Source: Deltaproteobacteria bacterium | GTDB taxonomy: Bacteria; Desulfobacterota; Desulfobulbia; Desulfobulbales; JAGXFP01 | Length of the DNA: 64,000 nt | Assembly (NCBI GenBank): GCA_020056965.1 | Contig: JAGVGT010000031.1 | Span: 54,170 to 118,169 of the forward strand | Direction: 5' to 3' | Shown here: in pieces, positions 979 through 55,759 of the stretch | Position numbering within the stretch: the first letter of the stretch is position 1 | Layout: each line of letters starts with the position of its first letter | Program-made: the position numbers and the translations under genes | The notes under the pieces: model-generated | Told to the model about the DNA's origin: nothing | What the model saw: the letters and a program-made list of their open reading frames with translations, nothing else | Databases searched by the model: none

Positions 979-1067
979 AGTAGGGCGCATTAGGCGAACG
1001 CCGTAATGCGCTGCGCTTATTGCCGCCCTACATGGGATGGCGGCAGATTGCACCTTACGTGTTGCTT
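979..1067. repeat. dispersed repeat with inverted copy near 55.7 kb
   Basis: An element of about 90 bp reading 'TAGGGCGCATTAGGCG', then 'TTGCCGCCCTACATGGGATG', then 'CGGCAGATTGCACCTTACGT'. About 60 bp of it recurs in reverse orientation immediately after the truncated attC at 55.7 kb. It abuts the first integron cassette here, so both copies lie at cassette edges. Confidence 0.65.
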
Positions 1068-1090
1068 AATAACTTGTTAAGTTCAAAACC

Positions 1091-1828
1091 ATGAAACCAG
1101 AATATGATTTATTGAGTATTTCTTTTCAGCTGCTAGGTGATTTAACAAATGATCTAGCAATCAAATATCTTCGTTTTGGATTTATTATACGAACACTGCA
1201 GATTAAAGAATCGATATTCTTGCTCAATCAACTACATGAAAAATCTGGAAGCAAGAACAGAGAACCATATGAGACAGTTCATACTAATATTTACTTAAAT
1301 TCATTTTATATAAACATACTTGGTGCAATTGATAATTTATCATGGGTTTTGCACTATGAATTTGAAATTATTCCTGGTGCAAATGAAGACAATAATAAGA
1401 GAAATAAAATTTCAATTTTTCATCCTGAATTTTCAAAAAGATTGTCTTCTATGGATAGAAAAAGGACGGAACTAATCTTGGAATACCAGCCATGGTATAA
1501 AGAAATTAAACTGTTAAGAGATCCAGCAGCACACCGAATTCCTCTTTATTGTCCGCCTGGTATCTTGAGACCCGAAGACAAGGAAATTATTCAAGCCAAA
1601 AAAACAAATCTTGAACAGACAGATTACTCCAAGAATCCTGATGCTTACATGGATAATTTCAGAGAAATGTCTCAAATTGGAAGGTTTGAACCAATTTTTA
1701 TTAGTAATACCGAAAAAGAAGACACTATTTTTTCCTTAAAAAGAACTACGGATCACGATTTCAATAATTTCTGTAAATTGTCAGATTCAATATTAACTAT
1801 GCTAAAAATAAACTTAACAAACGCTTAG
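1091..1828 (+). CDS. integron-cassette protein with HEPN-like Rx4H motif
   Basis: A 245-residue soluble protein of AT-rich composition, clearly unlike the GC-rich neighbours, which points to horizontal acquisition. The stop codon lies inside an attC site, the usual arrangement in an integron cassette. Around residues 75-85 there is a helical 'LGAIDNLSWVL' segment. Near residue 143 sits 'RDPAAHRIP', which fits the Rx4H signature of HEPN RNase or adaptor domains. HEPN proteins commonly act as toxins, abortive-infection factors or nucleotide-transfer partners. That assignment is inference from one motif and the helical character. No paired antitoxin gene is evident. Confidence 0.7.
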   Translation: MKPEYDLLSISFQLLGDLTNDLAIKYLRFGFIIRTLQIKESIFLLNQLHEKSGSKNREPYETVHTNIYLNSFYINILGAIDNLSWVLHYEFEIIPGANEDNNKRNKISIFHPEFSKRLSSMDRKRTELILEYQPWYKEIKLLRDPAAHRIPLYCPPGILRPEDKEIIQAKKTNLEQTDYSKNPDAYMDNFREMSQIGRFEPIFISNTEKEDTIFSLKRTTDHDFNNFCKLSDSILTMLKINLTNA

Positions 1829-1906
1829 AGAGGGACGCGGTAAACGTTTGCGGCGCTAAAGCGGTCAAGTTTATTGGCCACGCCCCTCAAGCGAAGCATT
1901 ATGTGC
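1814..1906 (+). other. attC: integron attC recombination site (VCR-like)
   Basis: The left end 'CTTAACAAACGCTTAGAGAG' and the right end 'CCCCTCAAGCGAAGCATTAT' are imperfectly complementary, giving the folded hairpin expected of an attC, with outer core sequences resembling TAACAA and GTTATG. The layout closely resembles Vibrio VCR-type sites. It overlaps the stop codon of the upstream gene and is followed at about 30 bp by the next cassette gene. The first 55 bases are nearly identical to a half-site at 55.64 kb. No integrase gene is in the window. Confidence 0.8.
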
Positions 1907-1936
1907 AAAATATAATCAACGGGGCAACATTGACTT

Positions 1937-2887
1937 ATGCCTTTAGACCATTATGTGTCCCAGGTACATCTTAAGAATTTTTATTCCCCAATTCTGGGGA
2001 ATTTGATGCATGCCATACGCAAAAGCGATTTAAAAACCTTCACTCCAAGTTCAGAATCAGTATGTAGAATTGAGGATGGAAGCACTAACTCTTATCTGCA
2101 CGAAGACCGAATAGTCGAAGAATTTTTAAAAAAGGTTGAGCCTAGATACAACAAATCTATTGACAAGTTAAGAACAAATAATATCGATTCTGAATGCATA
2201 TTTACAATTTCAAGTTTTGTTGCATATGTTGTTTCCTGTTCACCAGCTGGCATGCGAATACATTCAAATTTATTCAAGGGAACAGTTGAAGAAACAGCAC
2301 GTATCTTAGACAAAAACAATGCCTTTTCTGCTCCTCCACCTGAGTTAGGGGGGAGAACTTTAACAGACCTATTGGATGATGGTTCCCTCAACGTTACAAT
2401 CGACCCTAAATACCCCCAATCAATTGGGATAAATCAAATCATTAGTCATGCGAACTCATTTGGTAATTCAACTTGGGAAATTCTTATTAATAACTTTGAC
2501 GACAATCCATTTTTCACTAGTGATTTCCCTGTAGCAATAGAGAAAACGAAGAATAACCGAGTTATTAACAGAATCGCACCATTATCTCCAAATCTCGCAA
2601 TCAGAATTTGCCCAGATATAAATAACATTAACAATGATGCAGAATATTCCTTTTCAAAATTCAAACATTCAATACGTAAATTAAACCGACAAGAGGTTGC
2701 AGATATCAACAAACTAATTGTTCGATGTGCTGAAGATTTAGTGTTTTTCCGTGACAATCACGAATGGGTTTCTAAATTTGTTAAAAGAAATGCAATGTAT
2801 TGGGTTGAACCTAAAACTTATAGAATTCCTCATCATGGAGGAACTGCGCTTTGGTTTACACAAGGAATAGAAAAAAAGAAAACTTAA
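1937..2887 (+). CDS. DUF4238 family protein, integron cassette gene
   Basis: A 316-residue protein whose start 'MPLDHYVSQVHLKNF' matches the N-terminal signature of DUF4238 (consensus like HYVPQFYLRNF). Mid-protein motifs 'FFTSDFPV' (about residue 195) and 'LSPNLAIRI' are also typical of the family, which is of unknown function and frequent in mobile and defence contexts. Composition is AT-rich. The gene lies between a complete attC upstream and a truncated attC-like left half downstream, so it is probably a cassette. Family call is fairly confident. Function is unknown. Confidence 0.75.
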   Translation: MPLDHYVSQVHLKNFYSPILGNLMHAIRKSDLKTFTPSSESVCRIEDGSTNSYLHEDRIVEEFLKKVEPRYNKSIDKLRTNNIDSECIFTISSFVAYVVSCSPAGMRIHSNLFKGTVEETARILDKNNAFSAPPPELGGRTLTDLLDDGSLNVTIDPKYPQSIGINQIISHANSFGNSTWEILINNFDDNPFFTSDFPVAIEKTKNNRVINRIAPLSPNLAIRICPDINNINNDAEYSFSKFKHSIRKLNRQEVADINKLIVRCAEDLVFFRDNHEWVSKFVKRNAMYWVEPKTYRIPHHGGTALWFTQGIEKKKT

Positions 2888-2891
2888 AAAT

Positions 2892-2945
2892 CACATAACC
2901 AGTCACTTCAGGGGGGCTCGCCGGGGACGTTGTTTACTGGTTTAT
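2892..2945 (+). other. truncated attC-like half-site
   Basis: 'ATAACCAGTCACTTCAGGGG' right after the cassette stop resembles the left half of an attC. The expected complementary right half (CCCCTGAAGTG followed by GTTAT) is not found downstream, so the site appears cut, marking the right boundary of the cassette patch. A weaker local hairpin, ATAACCAGT with ACTGGTTTAT, is present. Confidence 0.5.
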
Positions 2946-2994
2946 TAGCTTCATCAGTTTCCTGGATACCCGGTCATTGGAACCAACAACTTAT

Positions 2995-49083: not shown

Positions 49084-51405
49084 ATGCCACGCAATCAACG
49101 CCCCCCTCGTCGAGCCCCTGGCGGTAAACGCCGCCCCGAGCAACGCCAGCCCGCCCAGGCCCGGCGGCAAGGCCGCCAGGGCCACCACCAGTCGTCGCCG
49201 GAAACCCCACGCGCCTTGAGCATGGAAGACCAACTCTTCCTCCTGCTTCATTCCCTTGGCGGCAAACTGGGTCACCAGGAAATCATCCGGGGCCTCAAGC
49301 CCGAGTCGCGCGGCGCCCAACGCAAGCTGGACAAGCTCCTCGACCAGCTCGGCCGGGACCGGGTGCTGGACAATGACGACGGGACTTACAGCCTGCGGCC
49401 CGGCCGGGATCTGTTCGAGGCCACCCTCGGCGTCCATCCGCGCGGCTTCGGCTTTGCCACCCCGGTGGCGGCACCTCCCGGCCGGGAAAACGATATCTTC
49501 ATCCCCTTTCCCCACCTGGGTGGCGCCTCCCACGGCGACCGGGTTTTGGTGCGGGTCGAGGACCCCCGCAAGGAGCGCCAGGAAGGACGGATCGTCAAGG
49601 TGTTGAACCGGGGCACCACCCGGCTGGTTGGGATCTACCGGCTGGGCCGGGTCTTCCCCGAGGACCAGCGCTTCACCTACCGGGTGCTGGTCGATCCGGA
49701 TTCCGTGAGCAGCCAGGACGAGGGCAAGGTGGTGTTGGCCGAGATCACCGATTTCAGCAGCGACCCCCTGCATCCCAAAGGCCGGATCCTCCAGGTCCTG
49801 GGCGACCCCGACGACCCGGCCATCCAGGCCGAGATCGTCATCTACGCCCACGATCTGCCCCATAGTTTCAGCCCGGCCGCCCTGGCCGAGGCCGAGGCCC
49901 TGGTGCCGGCCATCCAGCCCGGACCGGACCGGCTCGATCTGCGCGCCATCCCCCACGTCACCATCGACGGCGAGACCGCCCAGGACTTTGACGATGCCGT
50001 CTCGATTGAGGAGACTCCCAAGGGTTACCGGCTCTACGTCTCCATCGCCGACGTCAGCCATTACGTCACCCCCGGTTCGCCCCTGGACGACGAGGCCTAT
50101 CATCGCGGGACCAGCATCTATTTCCCGGGCCGGGTGGTGCCGATGCTGCCGGAGCGGCTTTCCAACGACCTCTGCAGCCTGGTGCCGGACCAGGACCGGC
50201 TGGCCTTCACCGCCATCCTCGACTTCGACGCCGAGGGCAAGCCGATCGGCAAGAAGTTCACCCGGGCGGTGATCCGCAGCCATTTCCGCTTCACCTACAA
50301 CCTGGTCCAGGAGATCCTTGACGCCGCCCCCAAGGCCAAGGTCCGCGCCAGCCACCGGGAGTTCGTCCAGCCCCTGCAGACCATGGCCACCCTGGCCGGT
50401 GCCCTGGAAAAGCGGCGGTCCAAGCGGGGCAGCATCGGCTTCGAGATCCCCGAGGCCGATATTCGGCTGGACGCCGACGGCGCCATCGCCTCGGTCTCGC
50501 GGACCAACCGGCTCCAGGCCCATAAACTGATCGAGGAGTTCATGCTGGCCGCCAACGAGGCAGTGGCCGAGACCTTCACCAAGGCGGCCAAGGAGGCGCG
50601 GCGCGACTTCCTCTACCGGATCCACGAACAGCCCGACCCCTTAAAGGTGGAGAATTTCGTCGAGTTCGCCCGCACCATCGGCGTCCCGCTGGGCCGCGAC
50701 CCCGGCACCCCCAGCTGGTTTGCCAAGATCATCCAGTCGGTGCACGGCTCCCCCCGCGAGTATGTGATCAGCAACCTGCTGCTCCGGACCATGCAGCAGG
50801 CCCGCTACTCGCCGGAGAACGTCGGCCACTTCGGCCTGGCCGCCAGCGACTACTGCCACTTCACCTCGCCGATCCGCCGCTACCCGGACCTCTTGGTCCA
50901 CCGCTCCCTGACCCGGCTGCTCACCCCCAAGACCGGCCGGGGCAAGCCCTTCTACGCCGATATCCAGGAGGCCGGCCTCTTTCTCTCCGACCGGGAGCGC
51001 AAGGCGGTGACCGCCGAGCGCGAGGTGACCGAGCGGCTGCAGGTACGCTACATGGCCAAGCACGTCGGCGAGGAGTTTGACGGCATCGTCTCCGGGGTGG
51101 CCGGGTTCGGCCTCTTCGTGGAGCTGCTGGATTCCTTCATCAGCGGCGGGGTGCCGGTGGCCGACCTCACCGACGACTTTTACGAGATCGACGAGAAGAA
51201 CCACCGGCTGCTGGGCAAGCGCTCGGGCCGCAAGATCAACATCGGCGACATCATCAAGGTCAAGGTGGCGGCGGTCCATATCGAACGGCGGCGGATCGAC
51301 TTTGTACCGGTCTGGCAGGAGGAACAACCGTCCGCCGGTGAAGGCGGGAAAAAGGGCAAGACAGGGGCACCACCGGAGACAAAACGCCGTTCCCGAAGGC
51401 GCTGA
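49084..51405 (+). CDS. rnr: ribonuclease R
   Basis: A 773-residue RNB-family 3'-5' exoribonuclease. A basic Q/R-rich N-terminus ('PRNQRPPRRAPGGKRRPEQR') leads to a winged-helix region, cold-shock domains ('GFGFATPVAAPPGRENDIFI'), the RNB catalytic core ('DGETAQDFDDAVSIEETPKG', with the Mg-binding aspartates) and a C-terminal S1 domain ('GIVSGVAGFGLFVELLDSFI') with a basic tail. It degrades structured RNA. AAGGAAAAC precedes the ATG. Divergent from the RelA/SpoT gene. Confidence 0.95.
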   Translation: MPRNQRPPRRAPGGKRRPEQRQPAQARRQGRQGHHQSSPETPRALSMEDQLFLLLHSLGGKLGHQEIIRGLKPESRGAQRKLDKLLDQLGRDRVLDNDDGTYSLRPGRDLFEATLGVHPRGFGFATPVAAPPGRENDIFIPFPHLGGASHGDRVLVRVEDPRKERQEGRIVKVLNRGTTRLVGIYRLGRVFPEDQRFTYRVLVDPDSVSSQDEGKVVLAEITDFSSDPLHPKGRILQVLGDPDDPAIQAEIVIYAHDLPHSFSPAALAEAEALVPAIQPGPDRLDLRAIPHVTIDGETAQDFDDAVSIEETPKGYRLYVSIADVSHYVTPGSPLDDEAYHRGTSIYFPGRVVPMLPERLSNDLCSLVPDQDRLAFTAILDFDAEGKPIGKKFTRAVIRSHFRFTYNLVQEILDAAPKAKVRASHREFVQPLQTMATLAGALEKRRSKRGSIGFEIPEADIRLDADGAIASVSRTNRLQAHKLIEEFMLAANEAVAETFTKAAKEARRDFLYRIHEQPDPLKVENFVEFARTIGVPLGRDPGTPSWFAKIIQSVHGSPREYVISNLLLRTMQQARYSPENVGHFGLAASDYCHFTSPIRRYPDLLVHRSLTRLLTPKTGRGKPFYADIQEAGLFLSDRERKAVTAEREVTERLQVRYMAKHVGEEFDGIVSGVAGFGLFVELLDSFISGGVPVADLTDDFYEIDEKNHRLLGKRSGRKINIGDIIKVKVAAVHIERRRIDFVPVWQEEQPSAGEGGKKGKTGAPPETKRRSRRR

Positions 51406-51413
51406 AAACTGTT

Positions 51414-51609
51414 GTGTGTAACAGTAACTTTCCGTTCACACTGAGCCTGTCGAAGTGTGGCCCAGTTCGATTTAGGCAACCAAGGGTATTGGCTTGTTAA
51501 AATGCGGGATTAGCCAATTATTACGATTGGGTATTCTGGTGCGGACTTAGTATTAAGTTGGGCCGTCCTTCGACAAGCTCAGGACGAACGGAGCAGCTGA
51601 TTGTTATAC
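51414..51609. repeat. large imperfect inverted repeat built on CTGAGCCTGTCGAAGG copies
   Basis: 'TCCGTTCACACTGAGCCTGT' near 51.43 kb and its inverted relative 'CTTCGACAAGCTCAGGACGA' near 51.57 kb, flanked by GTGTAACAGTAAC and TTGTTATACACC. The whole could fold into a long hairpin and faintly resembles an attC, but core boxes are imperfect. It precedes an AT-rich small gene. Confidence 0.5.
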
Positions 51610-51629
51610 ACCAAAGGAGAGGTAGGAAG

Positions 51630-51848
51630 ATGCTCTTTGCCCTTTATATTGTTGGCGGTTTATTAGCCATAGGTATGATAATTGGAGATATTTATTCAAT
51701 ATTCAAAGAAGACGTCAAAATGGCCGATGGTATAGGGCACAAAACAAAAACTTTTTTATTTCAAAGCTTCCAAACCCTTTTCTTCTTAACAGCCGCTTTT
51801 GTTTTTTCATGGGTAGCTGTCGGTTTTATCTACACAAAAAACAAATGA
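51630..51848 (+). CDS. small two-helix membrane protein in an AT-rich insert
   Basis: A 72-residue protein with two membrane helices ('MLFALYIVGGLLAIGMIIGD' and 'LFFLTAAFVFSWVAVGFIYT') joined by a polar loop. The AT-rich codon use contrasts with the flanking GC-rich genes and suggests transfer. AAAGGAGAGGTAGG precedes the ATG. The tracked ORF starts 24 codons earlier inside the dispersed repeat. No family recognised. Confidence 0.6.
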   Translation: MLFALYIVGGLLAIGMIIGDIYSIFKEDVKMADGIGHKTKTFLFQSFQTLFFLTAAFVFSWVAVGFIYTKNK

Positions 51849-51994
51849 ATATAACCTTATAGTGAATGTCTTATTGAAACTGCTAAAATATAGTTTTTTT
51901 CAGGTGACAAGAGTGCACCTGACATCTACAGGACGATTGTTGTCAAAGTAATGGTTGAGGCTCGTTCCAAAATCAATGTCTAGTAGGCTTCACC

Positions 51995-52552
51995 ATGATC
52001 GAAATGCAACGACGAATGTTATACACCCCAATCTTTCACATCGACACTAACCTTATCAACGCTCGCTGCTCACTTCCCACAATGAACCAAATCGAGAAGT
52101 GGGCTGCTGACGAAATAATCTTGGTAAACATGTCCGGTGTAAGTTTCAAAGAAGCGTTTGCGGGAAACAATGCAACTCGCACAAAGAAAACCCTCGCTCA
52201 GTTGTTCACCCTTACCGACGAAAACATAGATATCACTTGCAAGCGCTATCGTGAGATAGAAAACACTATCTTCCCTGGAGGCGCGAAAAACCAAAACCAG
52301 CAAAACGACGTGAAGATTATTTACGAGGCAGCGCATTGGAATGCCATATTGATAACGCATGATGGCGCCTCCAAGAGTCAGCCTGGTGGAATTTTGGGCA
52401 GACGCGACAAACTGCGCGGCTTCGTACAAATATTGTCTGATACAGAGGCCGTAGAGTTTGTTCGCCGCAAAATTGCCGAACGCGACGCCTTAAACCGTCT
52501 TGTTGCCAAGGAAACAGGGGAGCGCCTCCCTACATGGGTAGGAGATGACTGA
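51995..52552 (+). CDS. PIN-domain-like putative ribonuclease
   Basis: Up to 185 residues. 'PIFHIDTNLINARCSLP' (about residue 13) has the first PIN aspartate in a 'xxDTNxxxxR' context, 'NDVKIIYEAAHWNAILITHD' (about 103) the central and final acidic residues typical of PIN nucleases (DxxI-xxAAxxxxxLxTxD). The tail 'RRKIAERDALNRLVAKETGE' is helical. PIN proteins are often toxins (VapC) or RNA maturation enzymes; no VapB-like antitoxin is beside it. Composition is less GC-rich than neighbours. The start could be one of three closely spaced ATGs. Confidence 0.65.
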   Translation: MIEMQRRMLYTPIFHIDTNLINARCSLPTMNQIEKWAADEIILVNMSGVSFKEAFAGNNATRTKKTLAQLFTLTDENIDITCKRYREIENTIFPGGAKNQNQQNDVKIIYEAAHWNAILITHDGASKSQPGGILGRRDKLRGFVQILSDTEAVEFVRRKIAERDALNRLVAKETGERLPTWVGDD

Positions 52553-52670: not shown

Positions 52671-54260
52671 ATGCCCGCAAAACCAATCCGCAAAATCCTG
52701 ATCCTCACCCGCGAGTACGACGGCCTGGCCGGCGCCGGCGGGGTCAAGGACTTCACCGCCCAGCTGGCTGCGGCCTTGGCCCGCAAGGGTAACCGCCAGG
52801 TCACCGTCATGCTGCCCTGCTACGGCTTCATGGACCCGGAGGCGTTGGGCTTTGCCTTAAGCGACCTCACTCTGGAAGTGGAGATGAACTACGTGGGCCG
52901 GGAGCGCCGGGAGTCGGTGCGCTTCTGGGAGGCCAGCCGCGACGGGGTGCGGATCGTCCTGGTTGGTGCCGACCGCTACACCGAAAAAGGTGGGGTCTAT
53001 ACCTACACCGCTGCCGAAACGGCCTCCTACCCCAGACATCAGCAGGGCCAGGCCCATTACGACTACTTCGCCATGAACCTCCTGCTGCAGAAGGCGGCCA
53101 TCGCCCGACTGGTCCGGCTGGACGAGCGGCCGGAGATCATCCACTGCCAGGATGGCCACACCGCCCTACTGCCCGCCCTGATCCGGGAGAACGAGGGCTA
53201 CCGCCACTACTTCCACGCCACCGGCTGCCTGGTCACCATCCACAACGCCGGGGTGGGCTACCACCAGGAGGTGGGCGACCTGGCCTTCGCCGAGCGCATC
53301 ACCGGCCTGCCCTCGCGGGTGATCCTCGCCAACCAGTTGAACGGCCAGTTCGATCCCTTCCTGGCCGCCGCCACTTACAGCATCCTGAACACGGTGAGCG
53401 AGAACTACGCCCGTGAGCTGCAGGAGAGCGAGGATGACGACCTGACCGGCGGGCTGGGCCACAAACTGCTGACCCGCGGGGTGATCCTGGAAGGGGTGAC
53501 CAACGGCATCGAACCGGACCATTACGACCCCGCCCATCCGGAACGGCTGGGGCTGGTGGCCGGTTTTTCTCCGGAGCGGGGCCAGTGGAGCGGCAAGGCT
53601 CGCTGCCGGGCCGATCTGGTGGCGACCATGGCGGCGGGCAATTCCTCGGGCGTCCTCCAGACCGGCCACCTCGAATCGCATCCCAGCCAGCCGCTCTTCA
53701 CCTTTATCGGCCGCTTCACCGCCCAGAAAGGGGTGGATAAATTGATCGGCGCCCTGGAAACCCTGTTGCCCCTGGACAAGAAGTTCCAGATCTTGATCAT
53801 GGGCAGCGGCGACAAGGAAACCGAGGATGCGCTGGTCCGGCTGGCCGGCTCCGAACTTTACCGGGGGCGGCTCTGCCTGCTGCGCGGCTACGACGAGCAG
53901 TTGGCCATGCGGGTGTACGCAGCCGGGGATTTCTTCGTGATCCCCTCCCGCTACGAGCCCTGTGGGCTGACCGACTTCATCGCCCAGCTCTTCGGCAACC
54001 TGCCCATCGTCCACCACATCGGTGGGCTGGTCAAGGTGGTGGACGGCGTCACCGGCCTGGCCTACCGGGAGCACAACTCCGCCGCCCTGATGGGCGCCAT
54101 GCTCAAGGCCTTGGAGCTGTTCCGCAGCGAACCGGCCAAGGTCCGGGAAATGCGCGAGGCGGCGGTGGCTCATATCAAGGAGAACTACACCTGGGATATC
54201 GTGGTTGAGCGTTATCTGGCGCTGTATCGAAGGGCGCTGGAGATGGCGGAGAAGGGGTAA
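52671..54260 (+). CDS. glgA: glycogen/starch synthase-type glycosyltransferase (GT5)
   Basis: A 529-residue GT-B-fold enzyme. N-terminal Rossmann half starts 'RKILILTREYDGLAGAGGVK' (variant of the KxGGL sugar-nucleotide motif), with 'PEIIHCQDGHTALLPALIRE' and 'LVTIHNAGVGYHQEVGDL'. The C-terminal half has 'FTFIGRFTAQKGVDKLIGAL' and the 'VIPSRYEPCGLTDFIAQLFG' donor-site EPCGL motif typical of GlgA. It elongates alpha-1,4-glucan from ADP- or UDP-glucose. No other glycogen genes adjoin. The start ATG lacks a clear SD. Confidence 0.85.
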   Translation: MPAKPIRKILILTREYDGLAGAGGVKDFTAQLAAALARKGNRQVTVMLPCYGFMDPEALGFALSDLTLEVEMNYVGRERRESVRFWEASRDGVRIVLVGADRYTEKGGVYTYTAAETASYPRHQQGQAHYDYFAMNLLLQKAAIARLVRLDERPEIIHCQDGHTALLPALIRENEGYRHYFHATGCLVTIHNAGVGYHQEVGDLAFAERITGLPSRVILANQLNGQFDPFLAAATYSILNTVSENYARELQESEDDDLTGGLGHKLLTRGVILEGVTNGIEPDHYDPAHPERLGLVAGFSPERGQWSGKARCRADLVATMAAGNSSGVLQTGHLESHPSQPLFTFIGRFTAQKGVDKLIGALETLLPLDKKFQILIMGSGDKETEDALVRLAGSELYRGRLCLLRGYDEQLAMRVYAAGDFFVIPSRYEPCGLTDFIAQLFGNLPIVHHIGGLVKVVDGVTGLAYREHNSAALMGAMLKALELFRSEPAKVREMREAAVAHIKENYTWDIVVERYLALYRRALEMAEKG

Positions 54261-54371
54261 TAGCGAAAGATTTCCTGGCGTATATCTTCCCGATTGGGAT
54301 GATATACGGATCTGCTTAATTACTTGTTCTGCTAAAGAATTTTCTTAATACGTCCTGGAGGCACTTTCACG

Positions 54372-54752
54372 ATGAAAATAAAGAGCATCGAAAGATTATT
54401 TATAAAAGCTGCCTGTCCGACCTGTCCTGTCTGCCGTAAGAAATTTCCAAGAAATGAAAGAGAACGAGCTTGTGTAATCGCTTCGTATGGCACCCTTGAG
54501 GAACATTATTGCTCTAAAGCTAAAAAATCACAAAACATAGAAACAAAAAAACCATTAAAAAAAGAAACTACCCGCATAAACCCTAAAAAGGTTAGTCGCA
54601 TGTCTTGTCAAACATGTGGCAATACATTCTTAATCAACTCTTCTGGTTATCTTGAGGAACATAATTGTAATAACCCTAACCCTACAAAAAAAGAATTTAT
54701 AAAACGAATGCTTTCAGGTGGCGGAGCGAATGGCACTGGAAAGAGAAGATAG
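54372..54752 (+). CDS. small protein with two C2HC zinc-finger-like units, AT-rich
   Basis: A 126-residue basic protein with two similar units: 'CPVCRKKFPRNERE' leading to 'GTLEEHYC', and 'CQTCGNTFLINSSGYLEEHN' followed by C. Each gives CxxC...HxxC/HxC spacing of a C2HC zinc finger, joined by a lysine-rich linker. AT-rich composition and its place directly upstream of an attC site suggest an integron or otherwise mobile gene. Possible nucleic-acid binding. The family is not recognised. CTGGAGG precedes the start. Confidence 0.65.
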   Translation: MKIKSIERLFIKAACPTCPVCRKKFPRNERERACVIASYGTLEEHYCSKAKKSQNIETKKPLKKETTRINPKKVSRMSCQTCGNTFLINSSGYLEEHNCNNPNPTKKEFIKRMLSGGGANGTGKRR

Positions 54753-54848
54753 CCCGTGTGGGATGTAGTTCTTTAAAAAGCATTCCTTGCGAAAAATGGG
54801 GTTATTCTTGATCTTGCCTCTCGGTGTATAGAACATGGCTAAAATAGC

Positions 54849-54967
54849 AGAACAAGGCGTTTAACTATGACCGGGGCCACGGCGGCGCGGTCTACCTTGC
54901 CATCCTACAACTTCATTACTCCAGCCGGGCGCAGTGTTGCCCCGGCAAGTTAACTTTGCGTTATGCA
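54849..54967 (+). other. attC: integron attC recombination site
   Basis: The left end 'AGAACAAGGCGTTTAACTAT' and right end 'CAAGTTAACTTTGCGTTATG' are complementary (GCGTTTAACT...CCGGGGC with GCCCCGG...AGTTAACTTTGCG), with the core GCGTTATGC at the right. This is a complete, longer attC of about 119 bp, ending 11 bp before the next gene. Confidence 0.8.
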
Positions 54968-54977
54968 CTGGTGAATC

Positions 54978-55634
54978 ATGGTTGACCTTAAATCTACAGG
55001 TTTGACACTTAACTTTCGTCCAGGATTTGGGCTGGCCCACTTGCGGACAGCCTCCAAGCTCTCTGAATTATGTGGAGAGGTTGAAGTCAAGAATGAAGGC
55101 GCTAAGTTTGGTCCTTTTTTTGATGATATTAACGATTATTCATCTGCGTGTGTTATGTCTTGCGTTGCTTCATTAGAGGCTTATATAAACGAAATATTTA
55201 TTGATAGAGAAAAACACTTTAAAATTCATGATATTAACTTGATGGATGATTTATGGGACATTTTAGAAAAAAAAAGCATAATCGACAAATTTCAATTTGC
55301 TCTTCTGCTTAAAAATAAGGAAAAGTTCAAAACATCCTCAAAAGTCATGGATCACGTCAAAACATTGATCAAACTTCGTAATTCTTTGGTTCATTTTAAG
55401 CCTGAATGGGTTCATCTTCAGAAAGAGCACGACAAAATAGGTAAGGCCTTAATCGGTAAGTTTGAAATGAGTTCGTTTTTGCAATCAGCAGAACCGATAT
55501 TTCCTCTTCGCTGTATGTCATATAGCATGACTAAGTGGGCAGTTCGGTCAAGTCACGAATTCATCAACGAGTTTTCTGATTTATCAACAATCGAAAATCG
55601 TATTAAGAATTTTGAGCATATTTTCAATTTATGA
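54978..55634 (+). CDS. integron-cassette protein with HEPN-like Rx4H motif
   Basis: A 218-residue AT-rich, helical protein. 'YSSACVMSCVASLEAYINEI' (about residue 55) and 'LIKLRNSLVHFKPEW' (about residue 129) match the pattern of HEPN/abortive-infection-like proteins: a helical core followed by RNxxxH (Rx4H). It lies between a complete attC and a half attC, so it is a gene cassette. The same motif occurs in the 1.1-kb cassette, but the two proteins are not otherwise alike. RNase-type toxin or antiphage function is inference. No RBS is obvious, as is common for cassettes. Confidence 0.7.
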   Translation: MVDLKSTGLTLNFRPGFGLAHLRTASKLSELCGEVEVKNEGAKFGPFFDDINDYSSACVMSCVASLEAYINEIFIDREKHFKIHDINLMDDLWDILEKKSIIDKFQFALLLKNKEKFKTSSKVMDHVKTLIKLRNSLVHFKPEWVHLQKEHDKIGKALIGKFEMSSFLQSAEPIFPLRCMSYSMTKWAVRSSHEFINEFSDLSTIENRIKNFEHIFNL

Positions 55635-55638
55635 AAAC

Positions 55639-55695
55639 GCATAACAAACGATTAGAGAGGGACGCGGTAAAGATATGCGGCGCTAAAGCGGTCAA
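55639..55695 (+). other. attC: left half of an attC, interrupted by a dispersed repeat
   Basis: 'ATAACAAACGATTAGAGAGG' then 'GACGCGGTAAAGATATGCGG' and 'CGCTAAAGCGGTCAA' nearly match the left 55 bases of the attC at 1.8 kb. After GGTCAA the sequence changes into the repeat also found at 0.98-1.07 kb, and the right half with GTTATG is missing. Confidence 0.75.
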
Positions 55696-55759
55696 ACACG
55701 TAAGGTGCAATCTGCCGCCATCCCATGTAGGGCGGCAATAGCGCAGCGCATTGCGCCGG
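55696..55759. repeat. inverted copy of the 0.98-kb dispersed repeat
   Basis: 'ACACGTAAGGTGCAATCTGC' followed by 'CGCCATCCCATGTAGGGCGG' is the reverse complement of the copy near 1.03 kb. It directly follows the interrupted attC, implying insertion or recombination at that point. The stretch to 55904 has no other supported gene. Confidence 0.7.

Follow-up and report, generated by a model that had tools for sequence, protein, structure and literature searches.

We analyzed 64,000 nucleotides of a Desulfobulbales genome (GCA_020056965.1), here called the window, which corresponds to positions 54170–118169 of contig C58 (JAGVGT010000031.1) in an assembly of 3.08 Mb, 96 contigs and about 90% completeness (G-numbers denote genomes, with G000 for the source genome, C-numbers contigs and L-numbers loci). 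Near its left end lies an array of integron gene cassettes without an integrase gene (island 1), which, taken as a whole, is probably best explained as an array of two cassettes that stayed behind on a truncated docking site of an integron. The cassettes entered at attI by integron recombination: they start exactly at G/TT (the slash marks the crossover), their ends match, and the attC site is real. Judging from comparisons with relatives, it is also rather likely, if a touch less so, that island 1, a second array in the window (island 2) and most other arrays of this genome are satellite attI platforms that would have been filled in trans by an integrase encoded elsewhere.

attC sites and cassette ends

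The initial annotation, made from the letters alone, had described two AT-rich genes divided by an attC, a truncated attC left half after the second gene, and no intI in view, and all three statements were borne out (Table 1). The two open reading frames (ORF1 and ORF2) have 32–37% GC against 55–64% for the surrounding contig, and no intI is present in the window. The island thus holds one complete and one half attC (1811–2922).

The covariance search that had been proposed was passed, the first attC scoring 94.5 bits (E 1.5e-23) with a model (R1) built from aligned attC sites (n = 10), all from other genomes and with the source genome excluded. A DNA search with 1820–1925 yielded stretches of 78–93% identity in another eleven genomes from this order. 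The two nearest, G069 and G055, carry a site that is 90–91% identical, and similarity stops at the cassette crossover. The bottom strand of the window site folds with −18.6 kcal/mol (z −2.4). The core G of the right box is an A at 1898, which we read as a point change that gives no ground to doubt the site, because the logic of the cassette ends holds.

In the free circle, the first bases of a cassette complete its own attC. Consistent with this, the cassette start (G/TTRRRY) complements the cassette's own 1L box in 18/18 cassettes of this genome examined, with a mean own-end match of 7.06 nt compared to 3.30 when ends were shuffled; the observed mean was reached in 0 of 20,000 shuffles. The pairs are GTTAAGTT/AACTTAAC for the ORF1 cassette and TTATGTG/CACATAA for the ORF2 cassette. 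The second attC, of which only the left half is present, gave no match with R1 and folds no better than shuffled sequence. Rfam had zero matches in the window and was of no help on attC, and a home-made arm-pairing scanner was dropped after control DNA gave equally many hits.

attI remnants at both islands

Both window islands start exactly after TGCTTAATWACTTG/TT. This 16-bp motif (TT included) has two matches in the window at ≤2 mismatches, both of them cassette starts, for 0.03 expected. It also lies beside an intI remnant on contig C35, in G003:C62, where it separates an intact 473-aa intI from the first cassette, and next to another intact intI in G046:C6; because it adjoins intI at these three places, we take the motif at the window islands to be attI (family A). 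Accordingly, the cassette stretch, which had been placed from 1091 onward, begins at 1077, directly after the attI remnant. Island 1 keeps 14 bp of attI and island 2 keeps 47 bp, the latter matching an attI-type site of G003:C14 (84% over 37 bp, E 2e-7) and a site adjoining intI in G046 (90% over 30 bp), with a hairpin of z −5.6. The islands showed no synteny with the integrons of G003.

While the initial annotation had placed cassettes at the left edge, it had missed island 2 (54280–55695), whose two cassettes are located between glgA and gap. The left half of the attC at 1811–1904 recurs there, at 55642–55695, with 92% identity. In most of 80 relatives glgA and gap are near neighbors, as a rule 8 to 1200 bp apart, and in none of the 80 was an attI leader seen at this locus.

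Cassette islands and leader families across the genome

About nine cassette islands were found on nine contigs of this genome. Most of them open with a leader of the attI type that belongs to one of three families present in several copies, without an adjacent intI. Specifically, R1 gave ten attC matches (two each on C58 and C41, one each on C14, C22, C89, C2, C35 and C4), with weaker further sites on C41 and C35 and an extra leader copy on C59; the cassette-end rule served to locate each island's first cassette, whose left flank was then read. Family A has three copies (C35 and both window islands), family Y is found on C14, C22 and C59 (86–91% identical over about 230 bp), and family X on C2 and C41 (95% over 101 bp) as well as in G012 and G036. 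The C89 leader is of its own kind, and C4 has no recognized leader. Families A and Y are homologous to intI-linked attI sites and end at G/TT. When the X leader of C2 was scanned for promoters, no site passed the rule of the tool, and since a TTGACA...TATATA pair in this leader was seen by eye only, we do not claim a cassette promoter.

Neither intI nor a remnant of it was found beside the islands of C58, C2, C41, C89, C14 and C59, and on C22 an integrase C-terminal fragment lies several kb from the island. Searching the genome for integrases returned only Xer-like recombinases, this fragment, and an intI remnant on C35 (L064:13961–14542, 193 aa) that consists of the N-terminal portion and the final 40 or so residues (82% identical to IntI of G003:C62), the catalytic core being deleted. 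Both ends of this gene are in one open frame, and a DUF2971 cassette starts at the C35 attI. Many integron-integrases of the order have long frames (430–540 aa) with an N-terminal extension (L066:7269–8690, L142, L143), and the extension in the C35 remnant weakly matches Phage_int_SAM_4.

To the extent that a 90% complete assembly can tell, the arrays in this genome are frozen. Because the integrase candidate is broken, they are probably relics, eroded by repetitive extragenic palindromic (REP) repeats and elements of the REP-associated tyrosine transposase (RAYT) type.

Orphan attI sites in relatives

Another 12 genomes contain family Y, 11 of which belong to a single family (f5). In G058 the Y leader adjoins intI at a contig edge, and orphan Y copies retain the first 5 to 17 codons of this intI, beyond which similarity is lost; at several loci the break falls on a GTTA close to codon 14 (an observation by eye). 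In one genus (g31), copies of the leader from several distinct loci end at much the same place in the intI start, and the G003:C14 leader still includes about 12 bp of intI.

Differing cassettes follow the leader in these Y copies. At one host locus in five genomes (six copies, two of which come from G247, a 6% contaminated assembly), a left flank of 1.8–2.3 kb (79–88% identical) and the leader are common while the cassettes differ, and in 3/6 copies three different attC sites are followed by the same right-hand sequence, which begins again precisely at G/TTATGTTTACA. At another locus, the leader and right flank are some tens of bases apart in G052 compared to about 2.4 kb in G069. In the latter genome (2.8 Mb, three contigs) there are five or more Y sites, and intI is absent. 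GTT starts in 29/30 cases are not independent evidence, as the pattern itself required (G or A)TT, whereas the leader alignment is independent. Overall, this comparative evidence points to detached attI sites that receive and exchange cassettes at G/TT in relatives. We also observed, in L150 (G244:C139, 1928–2739), a degraded integrase downstream of an attI-Y leader, in cassette position instead of beside the leader.

A possible mechanism and competing explanations

Taken together, the dispersed islands and the relatives suggest that one integrase once served many landing sites. A satellite platform would be a short leader copy (attI and the very start of intI) at a fixed chromosomal place, presumably derived from a common copying event; an integrase encoded elsewhere would insert circular cassettes at such detached sites and exchange them in trans, with arrays that would stay small and be retained for their cassette genes. 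More tentatively, and with slightly less than even confidence, we propose a “distributed integron” in Desulfobulbales, i.e., one trans-acting integrase with several fixed, detached attI platforms of few exchangeable cassettes each, the platforms having multiplied as a defined stretch of attI leader, bounded on the left within the first intI codons (at a GTTA core close to codon 14 in several loci); the integrase itself may have made the copies.

Several points weigh against satellite platforms filled in trans. The window retains little of family A (14 and 47 bp), and the left ends of attI remnants in this genome vary (14, 47, about 100, 180 and 230 bp), which would also fit separate integrons that lost intI by deletion. 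Family X was never found beside an intI, and filling in trans is itself inferred from comparisons. Since the comparison set includes no same-genus genome, no empty site for islands 1 or 2 was directly seen, and with an assembly about 90% complete, a functional intI may be absent from it.

The graded remnant lengths would also fit ordinary decay, in which an ancestor with several complete chromosomal integrons, of different attI families, lost intI independently from each one and kept attI and cassettes. Integrase genes scored above the cut-off in 52/96 genomes searched, some of which have several, and the residual intI bases in the G003:C14 leader fit this course as well. Yet no intI remnant accompanies the islands on six contigs (listed above), the g31 leaders all end at much the same place, within intI codons 5–17, a pattern that separate deletions should not produce unless selection acts on a promoter there, and glgA and gap are adjacent or near in most of the 80 relatives, none with an attI leader. 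We therefore consider independent decay unlikely, albeit worth keeping in mind. Alternatively, an integrase could have put cassettes into attG-type chromosomal sites that merely resemble attI: IntI can insert or recombine at secondary GTT/GTTRRRY sites (PMC10127599), attG sites are discussed in PMC12444791, the attI similarity of island 1 spans 14 bp only, and the C4 island has no recognized leader. However, most left flanks are attI-homologous over 37–230 bp, including the intI start in relatives, and the 16-bp motif occurs in the window at two cassette starts only, for 0.03 expected. Such off-target insertion is thus largely refuted for the long-leader islands and has some room left for C4 and, weakly, for island 1; as an account of the arrays in general it is quite improbable. 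Finally, the poor fold of the second site would suit a non-integron origin, i.e., AT-rich genes flanked by chance inverted repeats, but we reject chance repeats given the covariance match at E 1.5e-23 with a model blind to this genome and the pairing of cassette ends in 18/18 cases, which leave this explanation with hardly any credibility.

Truncating elements

To the left of the island 1 attI remnant, everything has been replaced by a repeat resembling REP sequences and bacterial interspersed mosaic elements (BIMEs), and the attC of cassette 2, with its 1L box present and its right half absent, is broken at 2923 by GGGGACGTTGTTTACTGGTTTATTAGCTT. The sequence at this point (GGGGACGTTGTT) is 86% identical over 28 bp to an element end on C2 that interrupts the last attC there and precedes an intact Y1_Tnp gene (IS200-like, RAYT-type) and an inverted copy of the end. 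A similar element with inverted ends on both sides lies inside a reverse-transcriptase gene in G003:C14. Because of these two counterparts, the truncation of cassette 2 is most simply read as an element insertion after which the element body would have been lost. RAYT (Y1_Tnp) genes bounded by inverted GGGGACGTTGTT ends stand beside cassette arrays at L088:10860–11900 and L070:5241–6302, one of them within a reverse-transcriptase gene.

The last attC of island 2 is broken at 55695 by a REP-like repeat that is a 95% identical inverted copy of 999–1063. We rejected islands 1 and 2 as a single array split by inversion at the two repeat copies, since both islands lie inside the would-be inverted segment and an inversion would not join them. 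REP/BIME-like GTAG palindromes with a conserved tail (AACTCGTAAGGCGCA) occur at these two positions and at about a dozen other places in the genome. REP sequences and RAYTs belong together, and the fact that elements of both types struck attC hairpins may reflect a preference or chance.

Cassette genes and features of the window

Several cassette genes look defence-like by prediction (HEPN-like, DUF4238, DUF2971, AAA_13). ORF1 contains RDPAAH (Rx4H; HEPN-like by eye only) and has distant relatives on rhizobial plasmids (26–32% identity), and relatives of ORF2 on such plasmids are 42–48% identical. Neither protein was matched by PADLOC, and a PDB sequence search with both yielded nothing convincing. 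The cassette b protein has a weak, below-threshold Pfam match to HEPN_RiboL-PSP (E 9e-4). Elsewhere in the window, a further AT-rich stretch at 51300–52550 (38–47% GC) contains a 185-aa ORF and is bordered by a short dispersed repeat that recurs at 172–221.

Table 1 Features of the two cassette islands in window coordinates.
Feature	Position	Strand	Details
Dispersed REP/BIME-like repeat (GTAG-headed palindromes)	999..1063	+	17 genome-wide matches, 79–100% identical
attI remnant of island 1, TGCTTAATAACTTG	1063..1076	+	crossover between 1076 (G) and 1077 (T)
Complete gene cassette 1	1077..1898	+	start G/TTAAGTT pairs with own attC 1L AACTTAAC
ORF1	1091..1828	+	245 aa; no Pfam/NCBIfam/PADLOC match
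attC of cassette 1	1811..1904	+	model R1, 94.5 bits, E 1.5e-23
Gene cassette 2, right end truncated	1899..2922	+	start TTATGTG pairs with 1L CACATAAC at 2892–2899
ORF2	1937..2887	+	316 aa; DUF4238 (PF14022, E 5e-21)
attC left half of cassette 2	2892..2922	+	from sequence; no covariance match
Solo end of RAYT (Y1_Tnp, IS200-like) element	2923..2951	+	cuts attC of cassette 2
attI remnant of island 2 (hairpin and GATCTGCTTAATTACTTG)	54280..54326	+	similarity to attI-type sites
Island 2 cassette a	54327..54960	+	start GTTCTGCTA pairs with 1L TAGCAGAAC
ORF of cassette a	54372..54752		126 aa
attC of cassette a	about 54847..54966		other type, not found by R1
Island 2 cassette b	54961..55695	+	start GTTATGC pairs with 1L GCATAAC
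ORF of cassette b	54978..55634		218 aa
attC left half of cassette b	55639..55695		
REP-family repeat	55695..55758	-	cuts last island 2 attC

Comparison with known systems

The initial annotation had offered two labels for island 1: a cluster of attC sites lacking an integrase (CALIN) or a remnant of a chromosomal integron. An integrase-less array and a remnant of integron activity it is; by strict count, island 1 alone falls just short of a CALIN, since it has one complete attC and the default of IntegronFinder 2 is at least two (PMC9024848). Nor does it have the functional intI next to attI of a complete chromosomal integron. Like a CALIN, it has cassettes with attC sites and no neighboring intI, but an attI remnant is attached, one attC is complete at the locus, and several islands per genome have common attI leader families; the CALIN label is further refined by the second island in the window and the core-deleted intI on C35. 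Sites of the attI type are poorly described outside class 1 and hence not sought by IntegronFinder (PMC9024848), and attached attI remnants go unseen because standard tools ignore attI outside class 1.

Xanthomonas likewise has conserved chromosomal positions, separate from its main integron, that carry arrays without an integrase: seven such CALIN loci away from ilvD were read as ancestral integron activity (PMC12444791). The passages of that account considered here describe no attI copies at the CALIN loci, whereas in the present genomes the leaders are homologous to intI-linked attI sites and cassette exchange at G/TT is visible between species. Off-target recombination into attG sites (PMC10127599; PMC12444791) likewise involves an integrase that acts in trans away from its own attI, but attG sites are degenerate chromosomal sequences, while those here are copies of attI that carry leaders of up to 230 bp. 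In the Delta-attI cassettes of class 1 integrons, incomplete attI copies occur away from their normal position and were shown to recombine (PMC12901181); there, the partial attI lies within an unusual cassette, whereas here it precedes the first cassette of a chromosomal array.

In the open literature, outside of which most subscription papers fall, we found no description of detached attI leader families as array anchors, and for orphan, ectopic, secondary or attI-like sites only work on off-target activity. The ordinary part of our observations is an integrase-less, CALIN-like array, and the less ordinary part is its anchoring on dispersed, detached attI platforms that were apparently filled in trans. 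The origin of integrase-less cassette clusters is debated between decayed integrons and off-target insertion; should detached copies of attI regularly serve as landing sites, an integron would be a network of sites, and not one array per integrase.
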